Part shown: positions 2,150 to 25,450 of the stretch, piece after piece | Numbering within the stretch: the stretch's first letter is position 1 | Layout: every line of letters begins with the position of its first letter | Virus record (IMG/VR): IMGVR_UViG_3300021349_000048 | Span: 1 to 25,755 of that record | Source: a virus | Strand: one strand, 5' to 3' | Length of the DNA stretch: 25,755 nucleotides | Notes under the pieces: model-generated | Told to the model about the DNA's origin: nothing | The model's input: only the letters and a program-made list of their open reading frames with translations | Databases searched by the model: none | Program-made: the position numbers and the translations under genes

Positions 2150-2605
2150 TCAATCTCCTAACCACGCGCTGTAATACCGCTCGACTTCCTCATAGCCAAG
2201 TTTTTCAAATAACCAGCTCGCGTCCTTGTGAAGTTTAGAACCAACAAATAACCGCTGTACGCCGCGACGCTTTAATTCTTTTTCGGCTGACTTGAACAGG
2301 TGATAACCCGTTCCGCCGCCCCTATGGTCTGGGTGTACATAAAAAATATCCATTGTGCAAGTTAGGCATGTCTGATAATGCAATCCCGGCGCAATAAACC
2401 CTACAAAATAACCAATTAATTTGCCGTCCTCGCGTGCGGTGACTGAAATCACCCCACCTTGCGCATCTCGCTCCAAATACACATTGTATTGTGGATCAAG
2501 GGGCACTTTTTCCTTGTGCAAAGCCAATTCTTCCCAATGGATGGGGAGTATTGGCTTTACTTCTTCAAGAAACGGCGGAAATGGCTCAACTTGGCACGTA
2601 ATCAT
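2150..2605 (-). CDS. GNAT-family N-acetyltransferase
   Basis: A 151-residue protein with the GNAT fold signature: a beta-strand 4 segment TCTMDIFYVHPDHRGGGTGY (residues 82-101) whose RGGGTG (95-100) is the acetyl-CoA pyrophosphate-binding loop, followed by helix 3 (LFKSAEKELKRRG) and a final KLGYEEVERYYSAWL segment typical of the C-terminal strand. It would transfer an acyl group from acyl-CoA to an amine; the substrate cannot be read from the sequence. The ATG overlaps the stop of the upstream hydroxylase gene as ATGA, so the two are translationally coupled. Standalone GNATs of this size between neck and ejection genes are seen in several environmental podoviruses. Targets could be host proteins, virion proteins or small molecules. 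Family assignment is firm, function open. Confidence 0.86.
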   Translation of the reverse strand: MITCQVEPFPPFLEEVKPILPIHWEELALHKEKVPLDPQYNVYLERDAQGGVISVTAREDGKLIGYFVGFIAPGLHYQTCLTCTMDIFYVHPDHRGGGTGYHLFKSAEKELKRRGVQRLFVGSKLHKDASWLFEKLGYEEVERYYSAWLGD

Positions 2606-3189
2606 GGCGACACCACAGTGGGCGTCAAACCGCGAAAATCAGCCCGATAAGTGCGAATGTCGACGATCATATGAATCCGATCATCTGACGAATTGTTGAT
2701 TACTTCATGCTCAATGGCGTTCTGGAACCAATAGACGCCGCCGGTCTGCATATTGACCATTTCGTCGCCGCAACGAAAATTGCAGCCGGGGCCAGATTGC
2801 AGGACAAGGTGATAGCGGTCCCAGTATTCGGCATGGGCAGGCGTGTCCGCGTGCGGGTAGATACGACCGCCCGGGCGCAGCTTGTTAATCATGACGCGGC
2901 CTAACCGTTCGCCTTCAACGCGGGCCATCAAGCCGAATATCAGCGGTCGAGCTGCCGGCAGGTGCAGGGCGCCGTCCATCCAGACGCACTCGTGCTGATC
3001 CTTCTGGCCCTGCTCAAGCTCGGTCACGGACGCCGGCGGGAAGCGTAAAAAGATCGTTTCCGTGTCTCCAAACGGCCCTTGGGGGTAATCTCTCAAATAG
3101 GTGTCTGCCTTCCATAATGCCGCTTGGCGCGCAATTTGCTGCACCAATGGAATGTGGTCAAAACTTGATACAAATTGAAAATTCTTCAT
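2602..3189 (-). CDS. Aspartyl/asparaginyl beta-hydroxylase-like 2OG/Fe(II) oxygenase
   Basis: A 195-residue protein with the iron-binding facial triad of 2-oxoglutarate oxygenases: HAD (H113, D115) in PGGRIYPHADTP, and H161 in the segment WFQNAIEHEVINNSSDDRIH, with R171 placed to bind 2-oxoglutarate. The spacing and the sequence around it match the aspartyl/asparaginyl beta-hydroxylase family, which hydroxylates Asp or Asn side chains of proteins. I chose ATG at 3189 (MKNFQFVSS) because it forms an ATGA overlap with the stop of the preceding gene; an in-frame ATG at 3201 would add four residues. It is coupled to the downstream acetyltransferase, so both may modify the same target. A virion or host protein substrate is inference only. 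Confidence 0.83.
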   Translation of the reverse strand: MKNFQFVSSFDHIPLVQQIARQAALWKADTYLRDYPQGPFGDTETIFLRFPPASVTELEQGQKDQHECVWMDGALHLPAARPLIFGLMARVEGERLGRVMINKLRPGGRIYPHADTPAHAEYWDRYHLVLQSGPGCNFRCGDEMVNMQTGGVYWFQNAIEHEVINNSSDDRIHMIVDIRTYRADFRGLTPTVVSP

Positions 3190-3575
3190 TTCCCTACCCA
3201 TCCCGTGTTGGTTCCCGCTCCCGATTCCTTCACATACAGCGTTGTCCCGGCCCCACCCGACGTATTCAGGTACAGGTCGCCGATATTGCCAACGACAGCG
3301 CTGTTTGGACTGCCTGTGCCGGTCCGTAGCGCCACCGCGTTAATAGTTGGGGTGCCAGTCAGGGCAGGGGACGCGAGCGCCGCCTTGGCCGCCAGATCGA
3401 CTGTCAGGCCGGTGACCTGCGATTCGGTAATCTGGATTTGCGCCTGCGTAAATGCGCTGGCCGACGCCGCGCTGACGTAGACGTACAACTGGTTGAACCA
3501 CGACCGCCAAACGGGGGTCAGCATATCCTTGGCCGAAATGACGGGACCGGGGATCGGGGCCAATGGGGAGGTCAT
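3186..3575 (-). CDS. Small virion-type protein downstream of the gp10-like tail gene
   Basis: A 129-residue protein. The N-terminus has a proline-rich start and an aromatic segment (LTPVWRSWFNQLYVYV, residues 19-34), then a short helical part, then a C-terminal Thr/Gly/Ala-rich half with GDLYLNTSGGAGTTLYVKES (100-119) ending GWVGK, a sequence type often found at the ends of phage fibre or needle proteins. It begins with an ATGA overlap at the stop of the gp10-like gene. By position it could be a tail-needle or closure component, as in P22-like phages where gp26 follows gp10, but the long trimeric coiled coil expected for a needle is absent. I treat it as a small structural protein of unknown role. 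Confidence 0.6.
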   Translation of the reverse strand: MTSPLAPIPGPVISAKDMLTPVWRSWFNQLYVYVSAASASAFTQAQIQITESQVTGLTVDLAAKAALASPALTGTPTINAVALRTGTGSPNSAVVGNIGDLYLNTSGGAGTTLYVKESGAGTNTGWVGK

Positions 3576-4990
3576 TGCGCACCCTCACGAATGGAAACCG
3601 CACCCTCGGTGATGGTGAACTGCACCGGGTCGGTCATGCGTATACGAAACACAAAGTCTCGCGAACTGCCAAAACGTCGGGCGATAACGCGCTGTTTGTA
3701 GTTGCCCAGCGGACCGACCTGCAGATTGCGAGGGGTCGAGTAAGTCCTGCCGTTGTCTTTGGAACACTCAACCGTGATGTAGGGGGTGACGCCTTGGCCA
3801 GTGTTTAGGCCCACGCCGGTCTCCATGTCTAAATACATCTCGTCGATGCTGAACCGGTTAAAGTCGTAGGAACCGTGCCGGGTGACCAGCTCGCGGACGA
3901 TGGTCTGGCCGTTGTCGGTATAGACGCCGCTGTCAAACCGGTGGATCTTGCCCGAATTGACCTCAGACACCACGGTGATTCCGTTGGTGTAGGCTGAGAA
4001 CTGCGCCAAATGCCGCGTTGCGTAGTTTTGGGTCGTACCGCTTTGGGTCTCGCTCCAGAGGCCCGAGGCCGTGTCGTACAGGAACGAGCGGTCAGCCGTG
4101 GGGAACGTCAATTGGTACATGGGGTGGCCGTTGATGACGTAACTGATCGCCACCGCGTCCGACACCGTGATCTTGGACATGATGTAATCGAGGTCGGGGG
4201 TCGAGATGACGGCCAAGTTGTAGCCGGTGATCTGCACCACCTGCGCTGCGCCTTGGGGGTTCATGCCCAGAAAGCACACCGTCTGGTTCACATGGGCACG
4301 GCTATAGACCGCGGCAATGCCAAATTCTGAGGTTGCCGAGATGATCGGCTGGAACGGTTCGGGTTGTGAGCCGACGTTCTGCCAAAACTCGGTGTGGCGC
4401 TCGGAGAACAGGATCAGGTTACCGATCAGGGCATCGACGGCAAGTATGTTGTCCGAATACTGGGACGCCGATGCGAAGGCCAGCGAGTCCCAGATATTGC
4501 CGTTGAACAGGTTGGAGACCCAAAAATATTGAGTGCCGGGTTGCTCGCAGACGAAATAGCCGCTTACGAAAACAACCGATTTTGCGCCGTTTGGAAACCC
4601 GGACGAGGTGATCTGACTGAATGTGTTGGTGGCCGGGGTATAAATGTAGCCCGCGGTGCCGTCCACCACGATGATCTGGGACGGGTTGTTGGCAATGCCG
4701 ACCGCCCCGGTGTTGGTGTTCAGTGACCCCAGCAGGGTCTGCACGAGGGCGGTGGTGACGGAGTAAAAGCCGTTACCGGCCACGCAGTAGAATAAAGACT
4801 GGGTGCCGAGCATCCTGCGGACTACACCAGGCATCGTTGTGATGTTGACCAAACCGGGGGTGCCGAACACCGCGATCTGGGTCTTGTCGCCGTCTGGTCG
4901 CTGCTCGAAGTAGCAATTAAGGCGACGCTGTGCCGTAACGGGCAGCGAGCGGCCCTGAATCCCCGCGCCAAAAATAGGCACGACCTTCAT
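3572..4990 (-). CDS. P22 gp10-like packaged-DNA stabilisation / tail hub protein
   Basis: A 472-residue protein, the same length as P22 gp10. It begins MKVVPIFGAGIQGRSLPVTA and continues with QRRLNCYFE and FGTPGLVNI, the N-terminal pattern typical of the gp10 family, followed by a series of short beta-rich repeats with aromatic residues (FYCVAGNGFYSV, GYIYTPATNTF, YFWVSNLFNG) as expected for a beta-propeller. In P22, gp10 attaches below gp4 at the portal vertex, seals the packaged DNA and holds the needle and spikes. The ATG overlaps the TAA of the upstream gp4-like gene as TAATG, which fits stoichiometric co-translation. Two long open frames on the other strand over this gene are shadows. 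Confidence 0.85.
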   Translation of the reverse strand: MKVVPIFGAGIQGRSLPVTAQRRLNCYFEQRPDGDKTQIAVFGTPGLVNITTMPGVVRRMLGTQSLFYCVAGNGFYSVTTALVQTLLGSLNTNTGAVGIANNPSQIIVVDGTAGYIYTPATNTFSQITSSGFPNGAKSVVFVSGYFVCEQPGTQYFWVSNLFNGNIWDSLAFASASQYSDNILAVDALIGNLILFSERHTEFWQNVGSQPEPFQPIISATSEFGIAAVYSRAHVNQTVCFLGMNPQGAAQVVQITGYNLAVISTPDLDYIMSKITVSDAVAISYVINGHPMYQLTFPTADRSFLYDTASGLWSETQSGTTQNYATRHLAQFSAYTNGITVVSEVNSGKIHRFDSGVYTDNGQTIVRELVTRHGSYDFNRFSIDEMYLDMETGVGLNTGQGVTPYITVECSKDNGRTYSTPRNLQVGPLGNYKQRVIARRFGSSRDFVFRIRMTDPVQFTITEGAVSIREGAQ

Positions 4991-6006
4991 TAAGGGTTAC
5001 CGGCGTTCGGTTGGAAATAGATTTCCGACACTTCGGTATTGCTGTGGCGGGCAAAAGTGACCGCTTCTTGGTAGCACTCCTCCATCACCGGACCCCACGG
5101 CGCGTTAAACATGGGCGCGATTTGCTTCGATAAGCCCCAACAGAGCGCCGAATACCACTCTTGGGGGTACTCGGGGTTGTCCAGCGGGTTGTTGAAGTCC
5201 TGCACGGGACGCAGGTACACGATGTGGATCTGTTTGGTGACGTCGGACGCACCGCCACAGTCGATGTATAAGACACCGTTGGCGCCTGACGGGCCGTTGT
5301 TGCCGATCTGTGCCTCGTAGTAGATGGCGGTCGGGTCGCTGGTGTACGCGCTGCTCGTCTTGGTCGGCAGCGCTTCGTAGGTCTGGAGCGTCATGTAGTC
5401 GAGGGGGACGCTGTTCTGCGTGTTGTCCACGAGGATCGCCGTGACGATCTCTAGCGGGCGCTGGCCCTTGGTCGTGTAGTTGTAGACGTAGTTCCCGGCG
5501 GACGCCGACGAGGGTAACCCCGCCGCGATGGTGATTGACCCTGCACCCGCGTTGACCCCGGTGATGGTGGTCGAAAAGATGTCGCCCGTGTCGAGCTGCA
5601 CCACGCAATAGTCGTTGGAGGTGAAATTGCTAGTCGATCCCACCCCGGTGAACAGGGTGACTGCCGCCCCGTTGGCGCCAGTGGACAGTTGATCGGAAGC
5701 GTAGGTAACGCCTGGTACTGCCGCCACGCCACCGCACCAGTTATCGCCGGTCGGCCCGAGGTTGTACTGATACTGGCTTGCCGACAGGATGAGGTCGCCA
5801 CGCTGCCGGGTCCACATCTTCAGACCCGGAGCGTAGTCCAACCGGCCCATCCACGTTTTGACCATCATGTTGAGCTTGCGGGCGCAGTCGGTTGTCTCAA
5901 TAGGGTCGATCTGACCGTAAACGTCCAACTTGCCGATGTTGAGCAAAGCTTCCCGGATGATTTCGTCGCGATTTACGGTGAACGAATAAGTGCCGGACGT
6001 TGCCAT
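4990..6006 (-). CDS. P22 gp4-like head-tail adaptor / tail tubular protein
   Basis: A 338-residue protein starting MATSGTYSFTVNRDEIIREA, then LLNIGKLDVYG and KLNMMVKTWMGR: the helical N-terminus found in P22 gp4-type and tail-tubular-A-type adaptors that bind the portal. The middle (about residues 75-185) is Ser/Thr/Gly-rich and beta-like, and the C-terminus returns to helix (EWYSALCWGLSKQIAPMFNA). It is about twice as long as P22 gp4; the extra beta-rich middle domain may be an added decoration. The ATG immediately follows the TAA of the methyltransferase-glycosyltransferase gene, and the gene overlaps the gp10-like gene by one base. The adaptor role is supported by the N-terminal pattern and by the gene order; exact family naming is less certain. 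Confidence 0.7.
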   Translation of the reverse strand: MATSGTYSFTVNRDEIIREALLNIGKLDVYGQIDPIETTDCARKLNMMVKTWMGRLDYAPGLKMWTRQRGDLILSASQYQYNLGPTGDNWCGGVAAVPGVTYASDQLSTGANGAAVTLFTGVGSTSNFTSNDYCVVQLDTGDIFSTTITGVNAGAGSITIAAGLPSSASAGNYVYNYTTKGQRPLEIVTAILVDNTQNSVPLDYMTLQTYEALPTKTSSAYTSDPTAIYYEAQIGNNGPSGANGVLYIDCGGASDVTKQIHIVYLRPVQDFNNPLDNPEYPQEWYSALCWGLSKQIAPMFNAPWGPVMEECYQEAVTFARHSNTEVSEIYFQPNAGNP

Positions 6007-7653
6007 TTAAGCTGCCTTTCGCGCCGCTAGCGCCTCGGTAATAACGTGCCAAATGACACGGTGAGCGTGTTCTGGCGTGATGTCCATCTGACACTGCGCC
6101 ACCCCGGACGGTTTGCCATCCTCGCCCGTCACGTTTTTGCAGTGATCCCAGTTGTAATGCAGCTGGTGACAAGCTGGCGCTTCATTGTTGCCACGCCCCG
6201 GACAACTGGTTTTATCGGCCCAGAGAACATGGGTGTTGTCCCAGTCGCGGGTCAGGTTGTCGTTCGATGAGTGCGACAGGAAGATCACCTTCGGCATCGG
6301 TTCGTGCGAGACCGCATTGAGTACGCCAGTCTCTGGCCCGATCACGAGGTCCGCCGCAAGGCTGAACGTCATGGTCTGGCGGATTGACCAGTCGCCCGAC
6401 ATCGGGTGTACCCGCGGGTCGATCTGCACCTTGCGGCCCTTCTCGTCCTTCACCGGCTGACCGTCTTCGGATACCTTGAACCAACCTTGTTCGAGCAGTA
6501 CCGCAGCGGGACCGCCGACCAAGAAAATATGCAGTTTCGGGAACTCGAGCAGCAGTGCCGCAATGATGTTATCCACAAATGGCCACGTTTTATGCACGGA
6601 TGAACCGGCCAGTGACCAGACTATGTTAAATTCACCACTCTGCGCCTTCAGCACCTTGGCCCACTCGCGTTCCTCGGTAGTGGGATAGAAATGCACCTGT
6701 GGCTTGTGCGGAATACCTGCCGCGTCGTGTTGCAGCTCCAGATAGTTCATGTTGGTGAGCTTGTGCCGTAGTGCCGGTGGCACACCGTGCAGGAACCGGC
6801 CCGGTATCGCTAGAAGCGTTCCTTCCGCCGACTCCGACAGATTCACCCACTTGTCGAACTTTGCCTTCTGGTAGTCCCAGAACGCGCCCAGCGCTAGGTT
6901 AGGCACCTGATCCTTGTCCTGATAGTAGAACTCGTCTACATTCGGGTCATGCAAGATGACATCGGATCCCGGTGGAGAACAGAAGGCCGTGACATGGTAG
7001 CCCTGCTCCTTCAGGCCCGCGAAGATGCTCGACGCTTGGACGATATCGCCAAAAGCGCCGTATCGGACGACAGCGGCCCGCTTGGGGTGCTTGGGGATAA
7101 GGCAGCTAAATGTCTGCCCCTTCGCCTTTTTTTGAAAGACGAAGAACAGGCTGTACTCGCTGCCCTGATCCCGTCGCTGCCAGTCGAGCAGATCCCAATT
7201 GCCCGCCTTCTCCATCAGCTCAATCAGCCGGGTATAGCCGACGTTCCACTTGTGGTCGGGATTCGCGCCCGGCTCACCGACCTTTGGGTACAGCGTCTCG
7301 TCGGGCAGGTACAGGACCAAGTACCCGTTGATTTTGATGACCCGCAGCCACTCCCGTAGGCACTTGACCACGTTATCAAACGGAATGTGTTCCAGTACGT
7401 GACTGGAGAACACGAAGTCTAGCGAGTCGGTGCCGAAGATCTTCAAGTCTGCCGCGTCGTCGATCCAGACGTCGGGCTTGAACTGATGGCCAAATAGCTG
7501 AATGTCAGCGCCGTTGTCGACGCCGATCATGTGCGGAAATGCCTTGTTCGGGCCACAACCGATGTCTAAACCCCGGCCACGGGTCCACTTTGGCAACTCC
7601 CAACGGATCTTGCCTGCCTCGTTCCCCTGCGGATCTTCTTTCTTCCAGACCAT
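6007..7653 (-). CDS. Fused SAM methyltransferase - GT9 (heptosyltransferase-like) glycosyltransferase
   Basis: A 548-residue two-domain enzyme. Residues about 25-175 are a class I methyltransferase: motif I LDIGCGPNK (29-37), acidic D46 for the SAM ribose, and HVLEHIP (85-91), as in Methyltransf_11-type enzymes. From about 193 the protein resembles glycosyltransferase family 9 (ADP-heptose:LPS heptosyltransferases): VVRYGAFGDIVQASS (195-209), WSLAGSSVHKTWPF (346-359), FLVGGP (377-382), DLVIGPETGVLNA (435-447), and a Cys-rich tail with C484, C495, C505 and C521 before ITPEH, all in family order. GGAGG precedes the ATG. Likely role: transfer of a heptose-like sugar and methylation of sugar or acceptor. 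It sits between adhesin and neck genes and may work with the heptose-synthesis genes at the right edge. Exact donor and acceptor are unknown. Confidence 0.85.
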   Translation of the reverse strand: MVWKKEDPQGNEAGKIRWELPKWTRGRGLDIGCGPNKAFPHMIGVDNGADIQLFGHQFKPDVWIDDAADLKIFGTDSLDFVFSSHVLEHIPFDNVVKCLREWLRVIKINGYLVLYLPDETLYPKVGEPGANPDHKWNVGYTRLIELMEKAGNWDLLDWQRRDQGSEYSLFFVFQKKAKGQTFSCLIPKHPKRAAVVRYGAFGDIVQASSIFAGLKEQGYHVTAFCSPPGSDVILHDPNVDEFYYQDKDQVPNLALGAFWDYQKAKFDKWVNLSESAEGTLLAIPGRFLHGVPPALRHKLTNMNYLELQHDAAGIPHKPQVHFYPTTEEREWAKVLKAQSGEFNIVWSLAGSSVHKTWPFVDNIIAALLLEFPKLHIFLVGGPAAVLLEQGWFKVSEDGQPVKDEKGRKVQIDPRVHPMSGDWSIRQTMTFSLAADLVIGPETGVLNAVSHEPMPKVIFLSHSSNDNLTRDWDNTHVLWADKTSCPGRGNNEAPACHQLHYNWDHCKNVTGEDGKPSGVAQCQMDITPEHAHRVIWHVITEALAARKAA

Positions 7654-7672
7654 GAGTTCCTCCCTCTGGTGC

Positions 7673-7951
7673 TTACTTAAACGGGTTGAGCGCGGACAAA
7701 ATCCGCGACATCAATCCGGGCTGTGATGCTACTGGCTGAGATACTACTGGCTGTGCGTTTGGATCAGTAAACAACCCGTCCGCAGGGTTGTAGATAAACC
7801 CAATTTGCGCCGTTGGTGGGTCAGTGTCGGGCACGGCTGTTTGTGGAGTGCCGTCAGTGTCAGGATCGGGGAACCATGCGCCCTCACCATCCCACCAAAC
7901 AAGACTGGTCACGATATTGGATTGGTTGATGACTGCGTAAGTGTTGGACAT
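7673..7951 (-). CDS. Small tail-fibre accessory-type protein
   Basis: A 92-residue protein starting MSNTYAVINQSNIVTSLVWW, then DGEGAWFPDPDTDGTP and IGFIYNPADGLF. This pattern (Tyr-Ala-Val-Ile-N, a Val/Trp-rich strand, a Gly-x-Gly turn, then IG-x-x-Y-N and G-x-F) recurs in small proteins encoded just after tail-fibre genes, often annotated as fibre assembly or accessory proteins. The C-terminus is a Gln/Pro/Val-rich stretch plus a short amphipathic end (LMSRILSALNPFK). The ATG forms a TGATG overlap with the stop of the glycine-rich adhesin gene, so production of the two is coupled. I think it helps fold or is bound to the adhesin, but that is inference from position. Confidence 0.62.
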   Translation of the reverse strand: MSNTYAVINQSNIVTSLVWWDGEGAWFPDPDTDGTPQTAVPDTDPPTAQIGFIYNPADGLFTDPNAQPVVSQPVASQPGLMSRILSALNPFK

Positions 7952-9546
7952 CAGAAAAACTCCACAATGTAAACGTAGCCGTCACCGCCCTTACCGCCGT
8001 TACCGCCGGTCAATGAATTGGTGCTGTTACCGGCACCGCCGCCGCCACCGCCGCTGCCAAAGACACCCGCGCCACCGGCTTGACCATTGCCAGAAGTTGC
8101 ACTTGAGGAGCCACCGCCGCCGCCACAGGCTGCTGCTTGAGGAGATGATGTGTAAATTGCTAAATCAGAGGAAGTTCCATTCGCGCCTGCGCTTGCAACA
8201 GATCCCCCGGGGAGATTGAGCGTCGTGCCGCTGTTGCCACCCGTCACGGCTGTGCCCGCTGTTAAAACAAAACCGCCACCCGATCCGCCACCCGACGGGC
8301 CGCCGAAACAATTTCCACCGCCTGCAGATTGACCAGATGTTCCCGAACCACCACCACCCGATCCCGCATTGCTAGCCCCTGTAAGACTATTGTTTGCGCT
8401 GCCACTTGCTCCGTTAGCGTTAAATCCGCCGCTTCCACCGTATGTTCCCGTACCGGCAATAGCGTTTGTTCCAAACCCGCCGTTGGCTCCGCCACCCCAA
8501 CCGGGGCCACCGCCGCCGCTGGCCGTTGCAGAGACACCGGGAGCGCCACCACCGCCACCACCGCCGAGCAAATATCCTGCAAAACTACTGTTGGCACCCT
8601 GACCGCCTTGACCGGCAATACTGCCGCCCGTTGGCGTGACACCGCTTTGTCCGCTTGCGCCGCCCGTGCCAAGCGTAATAGCCACCGGGGTTGATAAGCC
8701 GCTTACTAAGAGGGTTGCAAATGCCCAGCCTGCGCCGCCAGCGCCGCCACCACCAGATCCACCGCTAATCGCGGCATAGGTGCCACCAAAGCCGCCGCCA
8801 CCGCCGCTACCGACCACCAAGGTGCTTAGAACAACAGCGCCAGAACTCGGCGTGTAACTTGTGCCTGAAGCGATAGTGCCGCCGCTTGAAAACGCAGTCG
8901 TTGTGGTATTGGCATACGACACGCTTGTCGTGCTTGAAGCGGTTACTTGCGCGTTTGATGCGTTGTAACCCGATGGCGTCATGCCCGTGATAGTGATGAC
9001 AGTTCCAACGGGGAGTTTTTTGGAAATAGCAGAAAATGTCAGCGTGGCAACCGATCCGTTGCCAGATGCTCCCGTTACTGCAATCGTTGTGGCCGTACTG
9101 GTTGTCGCAATGTAATAAGACAGTTTGGTGAACAGCAGCGCATTGGTCTTAGCCAAAATCGCCCCGTTTAACGTCAACCCCGTGGCCGACGTTAGGTCTA
9201 AAGACGTACCAGACGCTGCGCCCAATACGGGCGTCACTAGCGTGGGTGAGGTCGCGAGGACGTTATTGCCCGTGCCGGTGTTGGCCAGTTCGCCGACGAA
9301 GCCCGCGTTGTCGTACAAGATATAACCGGGAGTGCCGCCGACGACAGGCGTAATGCCAAGGGCCAGCGTTGCGTTCGCGGCTACCGATACCCAGACGCTG
9401 CCATTCCACGCGTACAGGCCACTGTCTGAGGTGTACGCGAGCATCCCAATGGGTTCGCCGACCATCTGCGATAGCGTCGGTAGGGTCGCGACGGTAAAGG
9501 CGCTGCCTGCCGCTTGGCTGCGTCGTACCGGTAAGTCATATGACAT
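7951..9546 (-). CDS. Glycine-rich tail adhesin (polyglycine-type receptor-binding protein)
   Basis: A 531-residue protein. I use ATG at 9546 (MSYDLPVRRSQAAGS), preceded by AGGAG; the upstream GTG at 9576 lies inside the terminator hairpin and would add ten residues. Residues 1-60 (with LAYTSDSGLYAWNGSVW) look like a tail attachment segment; about 85-130 carries fibre-type repeats (TSPTLVTPVLGAASGTSLDL); about 140-235 is Ser/Thr-rich beta structure; from about 247 to the end it is dominated by glycine, with runs of 4-7 Gly, ending GGKGGDGYVYIVEFF. Poly-Gly domains with Gly-rich helices form receptor-binding tips in gp38-type adhesins of T-even phages; this could be a similar tip. Downstream is a small accessory gene. 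Assignment as a virion adhesin is likely, the receptor unknown. Confidence 0.75.
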   Translation of the reverse strand: MSYDLPVRRSQAAGSAFTVATLPTLSQMVGEPIGMLAYTSDSGLYAWNGSVWVSVAANATLALGITPVVGGTPGYILYDNAGFVGELANTGTGNNVLATSPTLVTPVLGAASGTSLDLTSATGLTLNGAILAKTNALLFTKLSYYIATTSTATTIAVTGASGNGSVATLTFSAISKKLPVGTVITITGMTPSGYNASNAQVTASSTTSVSYANTTTTAFSSGGTIASGTSYTPSSGAVVLSTLVVGSGGGGGFGGTYAAISGGSGGGGAGGAGWAFATLLVSGLSTPVAITLGTGGASGQSGVTPTGGSIAGQGGQGANSSFAGYLLGGGGGGGAPGVSATASGGGGPGWGGGANGGFGTNAIAGTGTYGGSGGFNANGASGSANNSLTGASNAGSGGGGSGTSGQSAGGGNCFGGPSGGGSGGGFVLTAGTAVTGGNSGTTLNLPGGSVASAGANGTSSDLAIYTSSPQAAACGGGGGSSSATSGNGQAGGAGVFGSGGGGGGAGNSTNSLTGGNGGKGGDGYVYIVEFF

Positions 9547-9556
9547 CGCGACTCCT

Positions 9557-9584
9557 AAAACAAAAGACCGGCACACGGCCGGTC
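9557..9584 (-). terminator. Rho-independent terminator before the adhesin gene
   Basis: On the minus strand, a perfect 7-bp GC-rich stem GACCGGC / GCCGGTC closes a 5-base loop (CGTGT) and is followed by TTTTGTTTT. It sits in the 64-base gap between the small gene ending at 9611 and the adhesin start at 9546, the largest non-coding gap in the window. It should stop or reduce read-through from the capsid block into the adhesin/neck block. I found no convincing promoter directly after it, so the downstream genes probably depend on partial read-through, antitermination or a phage-type promoter I do not recognise. Confidence 0.75.
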
Positions 9585-9610
9585 CTCAGTCCCGGCATAA
9601 ACCGGATAAG

Positions 9611-9802
9611 TTAAACCTTCAGTTTCAAGGTCTTTTGATCTGCCGGTGTTTCGACGTAGCCTACCGGTCGACGGTCGCCACGGTAGACAAGGCCATCCTG
9701 AACAAATCGACCCTCGATCCCGCCCTCACCGTAGATGGTGCCGTGCGGTCGAGTCGGGTTAAACAGTTTCGTGCCATCAGCCAGGAATTCGTCGTTTTGC
9801 AT
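9611..9802 (-). CDS. Small hypothetical phage protein
   Basis: A 63-residue protein beginning MQNDEFLADGTKLFNPTRPH. I chose ATG at 9802 because GGGAGG lies four bases upstream; an in-frame start at 9835 would lengthen it to 74 residues but would overlap the preceding gene. It has no transmembrane segment, no cysteine and no motif I recognise; a short Gly/Arg-rich middle (EGGIEGRFVQDGLVYRGDRR) suggests a compact beta structure. It is the last gene before the terminator at 9557-9584, at the end of the row of small genes that follows the major capsid gene, so a minor virion or assembly role is possible. I do not recognise the family. Confidence 0.55.
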   Translation of the reverse strand: MQNDEFLADGTKLFNPTRPHGTIYGEGGIEGRFVQDGLVYRGDRRPVGYVETPADQKTLKLKV

Positions 9803-9813
9803 ATCGCCTCCCA

Positions 9814-10212
9814 CTAGTCCCAAAGGATGTTCCACAAACCGCCAGTGCCGGTTGTGACCACCACCAGATTACCATTGTAGCGGACGCCCGTGCCACCTGA
9901 CCCCGGATTGCCTTGGAAACCGACAGCCGTAGCCGTCTGGGTGGCCGTCATTTGGTTGGTCGTGGTGGTCGTGCCAAGAACATAGATGTCGTAAGGCGTG
10001 ATCGTCCACGATGCACCGGTACTGATCGCGTTGACGCCGTACAGAATGCCGCCACCCGAGCTGTCGATGGTAGCCGTGCCAGTCGTGCTCAACGGCGTGT
10101 AGTTGGCGCAACCGGGGCTGTAAACCAACCCCGAAGTGGCGTCAATGTTGCAGACGCCCAGCGGGGAAAGCGAGTTCGCCGGGTAAGTTGGGTTTAGGGT
10201 TGAAAGTGCCAT
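9814..10212 (-). CDS. Small beta-rich, probable virion protein
   Basis: A 132-residue protein rich in Thr, Gly, Ser and Asn, poor in charged residues: MALSTLNPTYPANSLSPLGV at the start, TGTATIDSSGGGILYGVNAI in the middle and a Thr run around residues 80-90 (GTTTTTNQ). Such composition is typical of extracellular beta-sandwich virion proteins such as head decorations or fibre parts. It follows the two related small genes after the capsid block and ends 11 bases before the next small gene. Two cysteines (C21 and C35) could be paired. I see no catalytic motif and do not recognise a named family; the structural role is inferred from composition and location. Confidence 0.55.
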   Translation of the reverse strand: MALSTLNPTYPANSLSPLGVCNIDATSGLVYSPGCANYTPLSTTGTATIDSSGGGILYGVNAISTGASWTITPYDIYVLGTTTTTNQMTATQTATAVGFQGNPGSGGTGVRYNGNLVVVTTGTGGLWNILWD

Positions 10213-10215
10213 GAT

Positions 10216-10662
10216 CTATGACCGATCCAAATAGTTATTACGCTCTATAAACCCACCCACATCGTCGTAGAAAGCGTCGTTGTGTTCGCGCGTATATTCG
10301 TCGTCCGTTTGCAGCAGCGCCTTCTTATCAAAGCCAACCCGCAGCGAATGGGCGCTCAACTCGCCATTGGTCAGGTCGCCATCGGCAAACTCGCCCGGCA
10401 TATTGCCCGCAATGTTGATGCCCATCTTGCGCTGATCGGTGACTTCCTGATCCTCAATGTCCATGCCGGGTGGCAAGCCATTGAAGAACGCCGCGTTATT
10501 CATCATCCGGGTGGAACCATCTCCACCCGGCAAGCCTTCGCGGCCGGGCATTCCCTTTTTCGCTCGGGCCTCCATGTCAGTGAGCCAGCCATGCTGATTT
10601 TCAGCACTCGATCCCTTGTCGGGGTAGTTGATCTGGAACTTTTCCTGCACAACCTTCGGCAT
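10216..10662 (-). CDS. Small hypothetical protein, paralogue of the next upstream gene
   Basis: A 148-residue charged protein starting MPKVVQEKFQINYPDKGSSA. Its centre carries FNGLPPGMDIEDQEVTDQRK (residues 60-79), nearly identical to a segment in the gene directly upstream (10677-11159); both also begin MPK-[IV]. The rest of the two proteins has diverged strongly. AGGAG precedes the ATG. It follows the major capsid and probable head-decoration genes, so a head-completion or internal-protein role is possible, but no motif proves it. The conserved LPPGMDIEDQE core is probably the functional binding site of both proteins. I do not recognise a named family. Confidence 0.6.
   Translation of the reverse strand: MPKVVQEKFQINYPDKGSSAENQHGWLTDMEARAKKGMPGREGLPGGDGSTRMMNNAAFFNGLPPGMDIEDQEVTDQRKMGINIAGNMPGEFADGDLTNGELSAHSLRVGFDKKALLQTDDEYTREHNDAFYDDVGGFIERNNYLDRS
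10445..10478. repeat. Direct repeat copy 1 (shared core of two paralogous genes)
   Basis: A 34-base segment that matches 10837-10870 at 32 of 34 positions, in the same orientation. It encodes part of the LPPGMDIEDQE core shared by the two neighbouring genes. The near-identity at DNA level, while the flanks have diverged, points to a tandem gene duplication with a strongly conserved core or recent gene conversion. Confidence 0.8.
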
Positions 10663-12705: not shown

Positions 12706-13206
12706 TTAACTCCTTGATTCCAATAATAATTTTCGCTCATTCCACCATTGTTTCATGCGGATGGATTGAGCGCGTTTAGTTGCTTCGGACTGCTTTTGAC
12801 CGGTCAGCGTTTTAGACACAGCGGCCTTGTGTTCTGCCGATAGTGTTTTTCCAACGTGACCCGCTGAGATTTTGGCCCTTGTCAAATCGCTGTGACAAAC
12901 TTTTTTGCCGCCACCGCGTAAATTAAACAAAGGCCCTTCGTTCAGGTCTCGGCGTCCGATTTCGTCGATCAGGAGCGATTCAAATTCGTATGCTTCATCT
13001 TTGGTGAAAGGGCCAATGCGCTCTCGCGTGACCCGCAAACCTTTAGATTCAAGATCTCGAATGTGTATCCCTATGGCGCTTTTTTGATAACGATGCTTGC
13101 TGCCACAAGTTCTTTCCCATGTTCCCATTCCGACATAAACCGGAATATTGTCGATAGGTGACCGCAATACGTAGGCGTACCGTGGTTGCTCGACAATTTG
13201 AAACAT
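12706..13206 (-). CDS. GIY-YIG homing-type endonuclease with NUMOD3 DNA-binding segment
   Basis: A 166-residue protein from ATG at 13206, preceded by AGGAG; a GTG at 13233 would add nine residues. The N-terminal domain is GIY-YIG-like of the LEM-3/COG3680 type: YAYVLRSPIDNIPVYVGMGT (10-29) with YVG at 24-26, then an acidic helix DEAYEFESLLIDEIGRRDLN (70-89) holding the expected metal-binding Glu (E74 or E76), and GPLFNLRGGG (91-100). The C-terminus is a NUMOD3-type DNA-binding repeat region (SAEHKAAVSKTLTGQKQSEA and RAQSIRMKQWW, about 123-155). Free-standing nucleases of this kind spread by cutting intergenic sites in related phages lacking them. It lies between scaffold and major capsid genes, an insertion in an otherwise conserved pair. 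Confidence 0.83.
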   Translation of the reverse strand: MFQIVEQPRYAYVLRSPIDNIPVYVGMGTWERTCGSKHRYQKSAIGIHIRDLESKGLRVTRERIGPFTKDEAYEFESLLIDEIGRRDLNEGPLFNLRGGGKKVCHSDLTRAKISAGHVGKTLSAEHKAAVSKTLTGQKQSEATKRAQSIRMKQWWNERKLLLESRS

Positions 13207-13226
13207 GTGGCGTGACTCCTGTTGTA

Positions 13227-13250
13227 GAACCACGCCACGATGGCGGGTTC
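13227..13250. repeat. Inverted repeat at the scaffold stop / endonuclease boundary
   Basis: On the plus strand GAACC-A-CGCC, a 5-base loop ACGAT, then GGCG-GGTTC: nine base pairs with one bulged A. It starts at the scaffold stop codon and ends before the endonuclease ribosome site. There is no T-run after it on the minus strand, so I do not call it a standard terminator; it may protect or process the messenger, hide the endonuclease start, or mark the homing insertion site. Confidence 0.55.
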
Positions 13251-23411: not shown

Positions 23412-23636
23412 TCAGGTATCCCCATGGTAATTGGAAATCGCGTTATACCCAGTCAGCGCCCCATATGGGCTTTTGGTACGCCGGGTGTACAGCTCAAGGC
23501 GATGCGGTAGATCCTTGTTGTGCCTGTTCAGGATCGTGGCATCCAGATCGTAGTCGCCCGTAATGTACGGGGTCTGGCGCCACCCTTCCGGGCAACACTT
23601 GTGCACTGGGTAACCGTTGCCTTTAGGCGCTTTCAT
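23412..23636 (-). CDS. Small hypothetical protein (74 aa)
   Basis: I use ATG at 23636 (MKAPKGNGYPVHKCCPEGWR), preceded by TTGGAG, which gives 74 residues and a 14-base overlap with the end of the nucleotidyltransferase gene; a longer frame to 23720 would lie deep inside that gene. The sequence has two adjacent Cys (residues 14-15), then TPYITGDYDLDATILNRHNK and YTRRTKSPYGALTGYNAISN. It is polar, with several aromatic residues, and probably a small folded domain. No family is recognised. It is the first gene after the heptose cassette. Confidence 0.6.
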   Translation of the reverse strand: MKAPKGNGYPVHKCCPEGWRQTPYITGDYDLDATILNRHNKDLPHRLELYTRRTKSPYGALTGYNAISNYHGDT

Positions 23637-24096
23637 GCATTTGCTCCAACAACTTCGTCGTGCTGACGCCTTCAACCCTGCCGCACTGGTGAATTTCCGG
23701 GCCTTCAAAGACCGGTTCACCGACAGGCAGATGCTTCCACCCTATCCTACGGTAAAAGATTGGTAAAGCCCCGTGATCGTAACCTTTGAACAAAATCTGT
23801 GGCCGAATCTGCAAAAGCAACTTTTGGTCGTCCCCCTCAAACGGGATTACGGCAATCGGGGTCAGCAATTCCCACCGGGGTTTCAGTCTTGCTAGGTCAC
23901 CATGCCAGCGGTGAATTGCCCAAAACCGGTTGCCCCAGTTCTGAATCGGTCGGGTCGGTCCTTTTAACCGCATGACCGACGCATCGCTGTTTAAGGCAAT
24001 GGTCAGGTGGTCGCAATTCGCCAGCGCCTCGGCCAGCATCAGTTTGTGACCCTCGTGCAGCAGGTCGAAACAGCCGTTTACCAACCCCGTTTTCAC
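23623..24096 (-). CDS. HldE C-terminal-type / HldC-like heptose-1-phosphate nucleotidyltransferase
   Basis: A 157-residue cytidylyltransferase-fold enzyme starting GTG at 24096. It has VNGCFDLLHEGH (6-17) with the catalytic H14-x-G-H17 motif, LNSDASVMRLKGPTRPI (35-51, matching NSDAS-x-x-RLKG-x-x-RP of the RfaE2 family), an acidic EGDDQKLL segment (87-94), LFKGYDH (102-108) and EGVSTTKLL (142-150). In bacteria this domain, usually fused to the kinase in HldE, makes ADP-heptose from heptose-1-phosphate and ATP. Here it is a separate gene joined to the kinase by a GTGA overlap, almost exactly where the HldE domains are fused. Residues 52-83 are longer and more aromatic than in E. coli HldE. The family is firm; the exact nucleotide and sugar are inferred. 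Confidence 0.88.
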   Translation of the reverse strand: MKTGLVNGCFDLLHEGHKLMLAEALANCDHLTIALNSDASVMRLKGPTRPIQNWGNRFWAIHRWHGDLARLKPRWELLTPIAVIPFEGDDQKLLLQIRPQILFKGYDHGALPIFYRRIGWKHLPVGEPVFEGPEIHQCGRVEGVSTTKLLEQMHESA

Positions 24097-24878
24097 AGCA
24101 ACGCCCGCAGCTGGTCAGCCGAACAGGTCGCCGTACCCACCTGCCCCACCACATGACCGGCGGCTAGGTTTGACAGCTCAGCAGCTGTGTGCAGGTCGAC
24201 GCCTGCTGCCAGGCAGGCGCCAACTACGGCCACCACCGTGTCGCCTGCCCCACACACATCGAACACTGTTTTTGATGTGGCCGGAAAATGTTTGTCAATT
24301 CCGTTTTCGTGCAATGACAAACCACGCTCGCCTAGTTTAAACAAGATGGTCGGAAAGTCGTTCATGACGACGTTCTCGGCTTCGTCAGTGTTAGGGCAAA
24401 TGATTGTGCAGCCTCGATATTTACTGAAATCCTCACCCTTTGGGTCCACCACGACTGGGATTGTGTGCACGCGACAAGCCAGAATCAGGTCAGCGACGAA
24501 TTCCCGATCCAAAAAACCCTTGTCATAGTCGCTGAGGATCACCGCATCAATGCCGGTTAGGTCGGGCGTCTCGGTCGGCGGTTCGTAATCGACATCATCG
24601 TCGATGCGCAGCAAATGGTGGCTGCCCGCCATGTACCTGTGCTTCTCGCCCCACGCTACGGTCGGAAAATGCGTTTTTACGTTGCACCCGAGCGCGCGCA
24701 CGTTAGCCGCCACGTTGGCAGCCCCACCGGGGCGCGTCTCACGGGTAAATTCCACAAAAATCGGGACCGGGGCTTCTGGACTGATCCGCTCAACGTGCCC
24801 TTCGTGGTAAACGTCCAGCATCGGATCGCCCACCACCAACACGGTGACGTCCTTAAATTCATCAATGATGTCAGTCAC
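24093..24878 (-). CDS. HldE N-terminal-type heptose-7-phosphate kinase (PfkB family), compact
   Basis: A 261-residue ribokinase-fold protein starting GTG at 24878 within a GTGA overlap with gmhA. Motifs follow HldE in order: LVVGDPMLDVYHEG (14-27), RISPEAPVPIF (31-41), RPGGAANVAANV (49-60), LRIDDD (90-95), ILSDYDKGFLD (114-124), VVDPKGEDFSKYRG (143-156), CPNTDEAE (161-168) and DVCGAGDTVV (207-216) with D213 as catalytic base. It should phosphorylate D-glycero-D-manno-heptose 7-phosphate at O1. It is about 55 residues shorter than the E. coli kinase domain; the missing parts lie after RALG (64) and before LFKLGERG (179-186), while substrate and ATP motifs remain. It ends at the normal end of the kinase domain. 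Confidence 0.88.
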   Translation of the reverse strand: MTDIIDEFKDVTVLVVGDPMLDVYHEGHVERISPEAPVPIFVEFTRETRPGGAANVAANVRALGCNVKTHFPTVAWGEKHRYMAGSHHLLRIDDDVDYEPPTETPDLTGIDAVILSDYDKGFLDREFVADLILACRVHTIPVVVDPKGEDFSKYRGCTIICPNTDEAENVVMNDFPTILFKLGERGLSLHENGIDKHFPATSKTVFDVCGAGDTVVAVVGACLAAGVDLHTAAELSNLAAGHVVGQVGTATCSADQLRALL

Positions 24879-25450
24879 TTGCCAATCCCCTTTTCAATTG
24901 CGTGGCAAAGTACGTGCGTCACTACCATGTGCATCTCTTGGATTACCGCCGTACTGTCTCCCGGCACAATGATGTCCACCGCGCATAGCGCAGCCATCCC
25001 CTTCCGGCCACTGATCCCAAGGACTCGCATCCCCTTTTTCTGGGCCGCAAAGATTGCCTCTTTGATGTTTTTGCTTTTACCCGAGGTGCTGAACACGATA
25101 AGGGTGTCCCCAGAGTTTCCCAGCGCCTCGATCTGGCGACTGAACACTGTCTCGTACCCATAATCGTTTGCAGCCGCTGTCAAAACGCTGGTGTCCGCTG
25201 ACAGACTGATTGCAGCGATTGCTCGCCGGTCGGTCTCAAACCGCACCACCAGCTCGGCCACCAAATGTTGCGCCTGTGCCGCTGACCCGCCGTTGCCGCA
25301 GACCAGAATTTTGCCGCCGTTTGCTAGGCTTTCCAGACACATCTGGGTCGCAGGTTCCAGCCGATCGTGCAGCACCCGTGCCAGATCGGTCAATGACCGG
25401 CCCGTCTGTCCCAGTCGTTGCGATATCTCCAAGTCGGTTAAAACGCTCAT
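24875..25450 (-). CDS. gmhA: Sedoheptulose-7-phosphate isomerase
   Basis: A 191-residue SIS-fold enzyme, one residue shorter than E. coli GmhA. It shows CGNGGSAAQAQHLVAELVVR (51-70) with H62 and E66, FSTSGKSKN (120-128) for the phosphate loop, and IQEMHMVVTHVLCHAIEKG (170-188), where Q171 and H179 align with the E. coli metal and catalytic residues Q172 and H180. All four active-site positions are therefore intact. The reaction is conversion of sedoheptulose 7-phosphate to D-glycero-D-manno-heptose 7-phosphate, the first step of ADP-heptose synthesis. The ATG overlaps the stop of the Ala-rich gene upstream (ATGA), and GGGGTGAGA could serve as ribosome site. It feeds the kinase encoded next. 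Relatives include DnaA-initiator-associating DiaA, but the operon supports GmhA. Confidence 0.9.
   Translation of the reverse strand: MSVLTDLEISQRLGQTGRSLTDLARVLHDRLEPATQMCLESLANGGKILVCGNGGSAAQAQHLVAELVVRFETDRRAIAAISLSADTSVLTAAANDYGYETVFSRQIEALGNSGDTLIVFSTSGKSKNIKEAIFAAQKKGMRVLGISGRKGMAALCAVDIIVPGDSTAVIQEMHMVVTHVLCHAIEKGIGK

Follow-up and report, generated by a model that had tools for sequence, protein, structure and literature searches.

The question raised by this locus is what a protein that joins a methyltransferase to a heptosyltransferase-like glycosyltransferase does among the head and neck genes of a phage. The window analysed here is the entire 25,755-base virus record IMGVR_UViG_3300021349_000048, in which the first-pass annotation had linked this protein to heptose genes at the right edge as a make-and-transfer system for a possibly methylated heptose. 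The fusion is encoded at 6007..7653 on the minus strand, with an ATG start preceded by a strong Shine-Dalgarno-like sequence, GAGGGAGGA. The 548-aa product of this single ORF comprises an N-terminal class I SAM methyltransferase (residues ~5-178) and a GT9-type GT-B glycosyltransferase (~187-548), and Pfam and structure matches confirm the earlier claim that both domains belong to one protein. Its AlphaFold model, built from a 44-sequence alignment, has a mean pLDDT of 92.5 and a pTM of 0.88. The ORF is not a chance one, given over 100 homologues in IMG/VR and dN/dS values of about 0.13 or less in both domains (close relatives, close pairs), and both domains are under purifying selection. No description of such a methyltransferase-GT9 fusion was found in the literature searched. 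Physical fusion is not strictly required, since at one locus (L085:4834-7035) the methyltransferase and glycosyltransferase domains are encoded apart, in two ORFs separated by two small ones.

The methyltransferase domain (residues 5-178, 7120..7641 on the same strand) contains a Pfam Methyltransf_11 match (residues 29-114) that exceeds the gathering score, with E=6e-9, and VIA-align of residues 5-178 returns SAM methyltransferases at Z 14-16, many of them tied. The invariant residues in the 44-sequence alignment include G32 and G34 of motif I and D46, alongside which H85, E88 and H89 are present in the window protein. Methyltransf_11-type enzymes such as 3dli and RebM (3bus) share the fold and the SAM motif, with many family members tied in Z. 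In the chromosomal relatives described below the SAM motif is kept but the LEH motif is altered, and methylation may therefore vary.

The second domain (residues 187-548, 6010..7095, minus strand) had been called GT9-type, and this assignment is borne out by its predicted structure, which is closest to GT9 enzymes. VIA-align places it nearest the Veillonella GT9 protein 3tov (Z 23.8, 4.0 A over 287 residues) and WaaF (1psw, 23.1), with WaaC (2h1h) at 20.5 and TibC (4rap) at 20.4. The PF01075 profile finds no match in the window protein at E<=0.5 and matches 23 of the 44 aligned relatives, the best at 2.5e-10. A GT-B fold is common to the fusion, WaaC, WaaF and 3tov (Z 20-24 over 262-287 residues), and the catalytic Asp and donor Lys are common to the fusion and WaaC/WaaF; however, identity to these three enzymes is only 12-16%, and an ETGxxN motif, the fused methyltransferase and the setting as a phage late gene are the fusion's own. 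Alignment to WaaF with hhalign places the catalytic Asp at D203 (7045..7047) and the donor Lys at K355 (6589..6591), whereas WaaC could not be usefully aligned in this way. Both residues, encoded on the minus strand, are invariant in all 44 sequences and correspond to the WaaC catalytic base D13 and to K192, which binds the donor, the two being key residues of that enzyme (PMC5713226, PMC3559599). D203, K355, S351 and four C-terminal cysteines are conserved, with few or no exceptions, across the 44 and also in the chromosomal relatives. With its GT9 catalytic residues invariant the enzyme therefore looks active, and an active GT9-type transferase is likely.

The donor pocket is a different matter. 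In WaaC the heptosyltransferase signature D261(T/S)(G/A)xxH266 contacts the heptose (PMC3559599). In the fusion it is replaced by E441-T-G-x-x-N446 (6316..6333, minus strand), which is found in 44 of 44 aligned relatives and in nine chromosomal copies; the signature itself is kept nowhere, and ETGxxN is unchanged in records with and without a heptose cassette. An altered pocket is thus indicated, and ADP-heptose as donor is therefore unproven. At the positions of D261 and H266 the fusion invariably has E and N, which counts against a heptose-transferring reading. A pocket clearly shaped for another donor, which the first-pass annotation had named as contrary evidence, is seen only in part.

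The four cysteines (C484, C495, C505 and C521; 6091..6204, minus strand) form a predicted metal knuckle with the spacing C-x10-C-x9-C-x15-C, and each is conserved in 42-44 of the 44 aligned relatives. The region had been singled out in the first-pass annotation, and it is present as described, but it is no distinguishing mark, as many ordinary bacterial GT9 proteins also have four cysteines (C-x2-C-x(4-5)-C-x(5-10)-C). The BAHT O-heptosyltransferases (TibC, 4rap/4rb4; AAH), which set a precedent by attaching heptose from ADP-heptose to serines of adhesins (PMC4358343), have the same fold (Z ~20) and four C-terminal cysteines. Further marks of that family are a dodecamer, a beta-hairpin thumb and donor contacts by Trp-305 and Arg-286. 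However, their N-terminal beta-barrel is missing in the fusion, where the model has the methyltransferase instead, and the four cysteines of the TibC iron finger are spaced C-x2-C-x15-C-x11-C. Because ordinary bacterial GT9 proteins share such a region, the four cysteines do not point to TibC and were rejected as evidence of BAHT membership.

The position of the gene was described as lying between a tail adhesin and neck genes, and the neighbourhood agrees with that description. On one side are a small ORF and a Gly-rich tail/adhesin-like protein (7951..9576, minus strand), which has weak or partial matches, is variable among relatives and has no PHROG or Pfam match; it is a possible acceptor. 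On the other side the TAA of the fusion directly abuts, in the window sequence, the ATG of a gene in the neck-adaptor position (4990..6006, minus strand, assigned by synteny), beyond which is the head closure protein Hc3, a P22 gp10-like stabilization protein (3572..4990, minus strand; PHROG 578, E=4e-92). In every relative compared, the fusion lies upstream of the neck genes. A promoter consensus search of 5000-10500 found none, which is compatible with a longer late operon and weakly suggests one. After the head-closure gene come an Asp/Asn beta-hydroxylase (2602-3201) and a GNAT acetyltransferase (2150-2605), a pair that recurs, jointly or singly, in several relatives; these are possible further late modification enzymes. 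Elsewhere in the window, an ORF between the scaffold and capsid genes (12706-13233) resembles by eye a GIY-YIG type homing endonuclease, with homologues at the same place in two related records (G025 and G026).

None of 50,697 isolated-phage records matches the fusion, and a search of these with a divergent member as query returned only generic methyltransferases. A capsid-anchored survey took the best 80 of 291 major capsid protein matches and therefore describes close relatives; of these 80 loci, 33 extend as far as the neck region, and the fusion is present in 32 of them, the sole exception (L235) having no neck homologue either. Median identity to the window in 17 longer records is 56% for the fusion, 56% for the portal, and 51 and 48% for the two neck genes, and the fusion is thus as conserved as the portal in this set. 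Given its presence in 32 of 33 neck-reaching loci, the purifying selection and the stop codon abutting the start of a neck gene, the fusion is not stray cargo; among close relatives, it belongs to the nearly fixed core of a little-known phage/prophage group. A core gene with a constant place among the neck genes could also serve chiefly in neck structure or assembly, its product being of enzyme ancestry and having little catalysis, and the altered LEH motif of the chromosomal relatives would suit such a role. However, the glycosyltransferase catalytic residues and cysteines stay invariant in relatives of as little as about 50% identity and also in the chromosomal fusions, and related isolates (Rhodoferax P26218, Escherichia PTXU04, Vibrio 219E41.1 and DSL-LC05) have no annotated equivalent at the neck, which makes a structural role very improbable.

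A profile of the glycosyltransferase domain was also run against 398 genomes of the phylum to which a Nevskia MAG belongs. Strong matches were obtained in nine genomes, including the Nevskia MAG, and two more genomes had weak matches only. The copy in the Nevskia MAG sits on a phage contig, and the remaining eight genomes contain nine full-length fusions at 33-40% identity. The chromosomal fusions retrieved are accompanied by portal and/or capsid homologues, in the same setting as the phage copies, and on this context they are called prophage-like. In one of them (G206 C29, L256-L257), hemE-like and cytochrome-like chromosomal genes lie on one side of the fusion block. No heptose genes were found beside the chromosomal copies retrieved.

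These prophage-like copies would suit a role at the host surface. On such a reading the enzyme alters host LPS late in infection, with a methylated heptose or another core sugar, and progeny avoid re-adsorbing to debris or to infected cells. The best-studied GT9 enzymes act on the LPS core, and two of them, WaaF and WaaC, count among the nearest structural matches. However, a place inside the neck block, directly against the following neck gene, that is shared by nearly all relatives would be unusual for surface conversion, and the LPS-heptosyltransferase signature is not retained; LPS modification is accordingly rated a minority reading, rather unlikely.

The heptose cassette at the right edge of the window is real. 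It consists, all on the minus strand, of a gmhA-like sedoheptulose-7-phosphate isomerase (24875..25450; TIGR00441, E=1e-54), a compact homologue of the HldE kinase domain (24093..24878; TIGR02198, E=1e-71) and a homologue of the HldE nucleotidyltransferase domain with an HEGH motif (23623..24096; TIGR02199, E=3e-22), each of which falls below its curated NCBIfam equivalog cut-off. In the kinase homologue, profile positions about 66-102 are unmatched, as they are in several relatives. Beside terS is a small conserved protein (23412-23720) with no Pfam match, which is about 42-70% identical across relatives with or without heptose genes.

The co-occurrence of fusion and cassette was assessed in 19 informative records, those in which at least about 2.5 kb of sequence can be seen upstream of terL, a set chosen from match positions after the results were seen. 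At least one heptose gene is present in 11 of the 19 (G000, G002, G005, G008, G013, G017, G018, G023, G029, G034 and G066). None was found in the other eight (G025, G026, G031, G038, G065, G067, G069 and G039, the last on its phage contig C524), which keep the fusion without a gmhA or HldE-kinase match; G067 and G069 were counted without the nucleotidyltransferase model, and G039 C524 without a check of the terL position. One of the cassette-less records, G025, is 43 kb long and has an end repeat. Cassettes are often partial, with gmhA only in G018, no nucleotidyltransferase in G017, no gmhA in G023, and gmhA and the nucleotidyltransferase with no kinase match in G066. Matches to the gmhB and hldD families were absent from 22 records, many of them fragments, and the absence of hldD in these is consistent with a D,D-heptose product. 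Among 50,697 phage records, by comparison, gmhA was found in 13, of which at least one is bacterial sequence; heptose genes are thus strongly enriched in the clade, although, because the fusion is nearly universal there, the enrichment may reflect common ancestry. The predicted co-occurrence therefore stands for 11 of the 19 records and breaks down for eight, and the lack of co-occurrence that would have told against the proposal is seen only in part. The cassette as an obligate partner of the fusion is ruled out by the same eight records, and the persistence of the fusion without phage heptose genes counts against a heptose-transferring reading.

The cassette position is differently occupied in some relatives. 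In the cassette-less G025 and G026 it holds a GT4 gene and a Methyltransf_24 gene (L109:9531-11404 and L112:4873-6704), and in G023 it holds GT4, cupin and HldE-like genes. Such separate glycosyltransferases bear on whether the fusion is a glycosyltransferase-methyltransferase with a donor other than heptose, the cassette then serving host nucleotide-sugar pools or another phage glycosyltransferase. The replacement of the heptose-contacting signature by ETGxxN everywhere, cassette or not, points the same way. However, no pathway for another nucleotide sugar stood out in the window, the nearest solved structures of known donor are ADP-heptose enzymes, and the clade is strongly enriched in heptose genes; a non-heptose donor of this kind is possible, with a probability well below even. 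DNA glycosylation was weighed as another possible role; no gene for base modification caught attention in the window.

The leading reading is that of a late phage glycosyltransferase with a virion acceptor, a tentative choice, which would be right if this main line holds though details differ. The protein would be a soluble, probably bifunctional tailoring enzyme produced late in infection, in which the GT9 domain uses a nucleotide sugar to glycosylate an acceptor while the fused methyltransferase methylates the sugar or the acceptor. The most likely single donor would be ADP-D-glycero-D-manno-heptose, and ADP-heptose as donor is given a little less than an even chance. It might be supplied by the phage cassette together with a host phosphatase, or by the host alone where the cassette is missing. 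The likeliest acceptor would be a virion protein of the same late operon, for example a tail/adhesin or neck protein, an assignment that is somewhat doubtful and after which LPS ranks next. The narrower version, in which a protein-glycosylation module of the head-neck operon uses its ETGxxN GT9 domain to place a methylated heptose or related sugar on virion proteins and is fed by the cassette in some phages, has roughly one quarter of the belief behind it and is unlikely as it stands. The original make-and-transfer proposal is partly supported: the fusion, the GT9 fold, the late position and the enrichment of heptose genes stand, while the fusion does not need the cassette and the heptosyltransferase signature is replaced. 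Glycans are carried by mycobacteriophage capsid and tail proteins (Freeman et al. 2023, as cited in PMC12619734); virion glycosylation has been shown there and is proposed here, and both the hosts and the glycans differ.

That a glycosyltransferase gene is near-fixed and matches the portal in conservation suggests that adding glycans is generally important to this phage group and more than an option. The usual annotation of a GT9 protein is LPS heptosyltransferase, and the ETGxxN variant warns against giving phage GT9 copies an ADP-heptose donor on fold alone. If the acceptor is a virion protein, the phage would, unusually, be helping to make and attach its own heptose.
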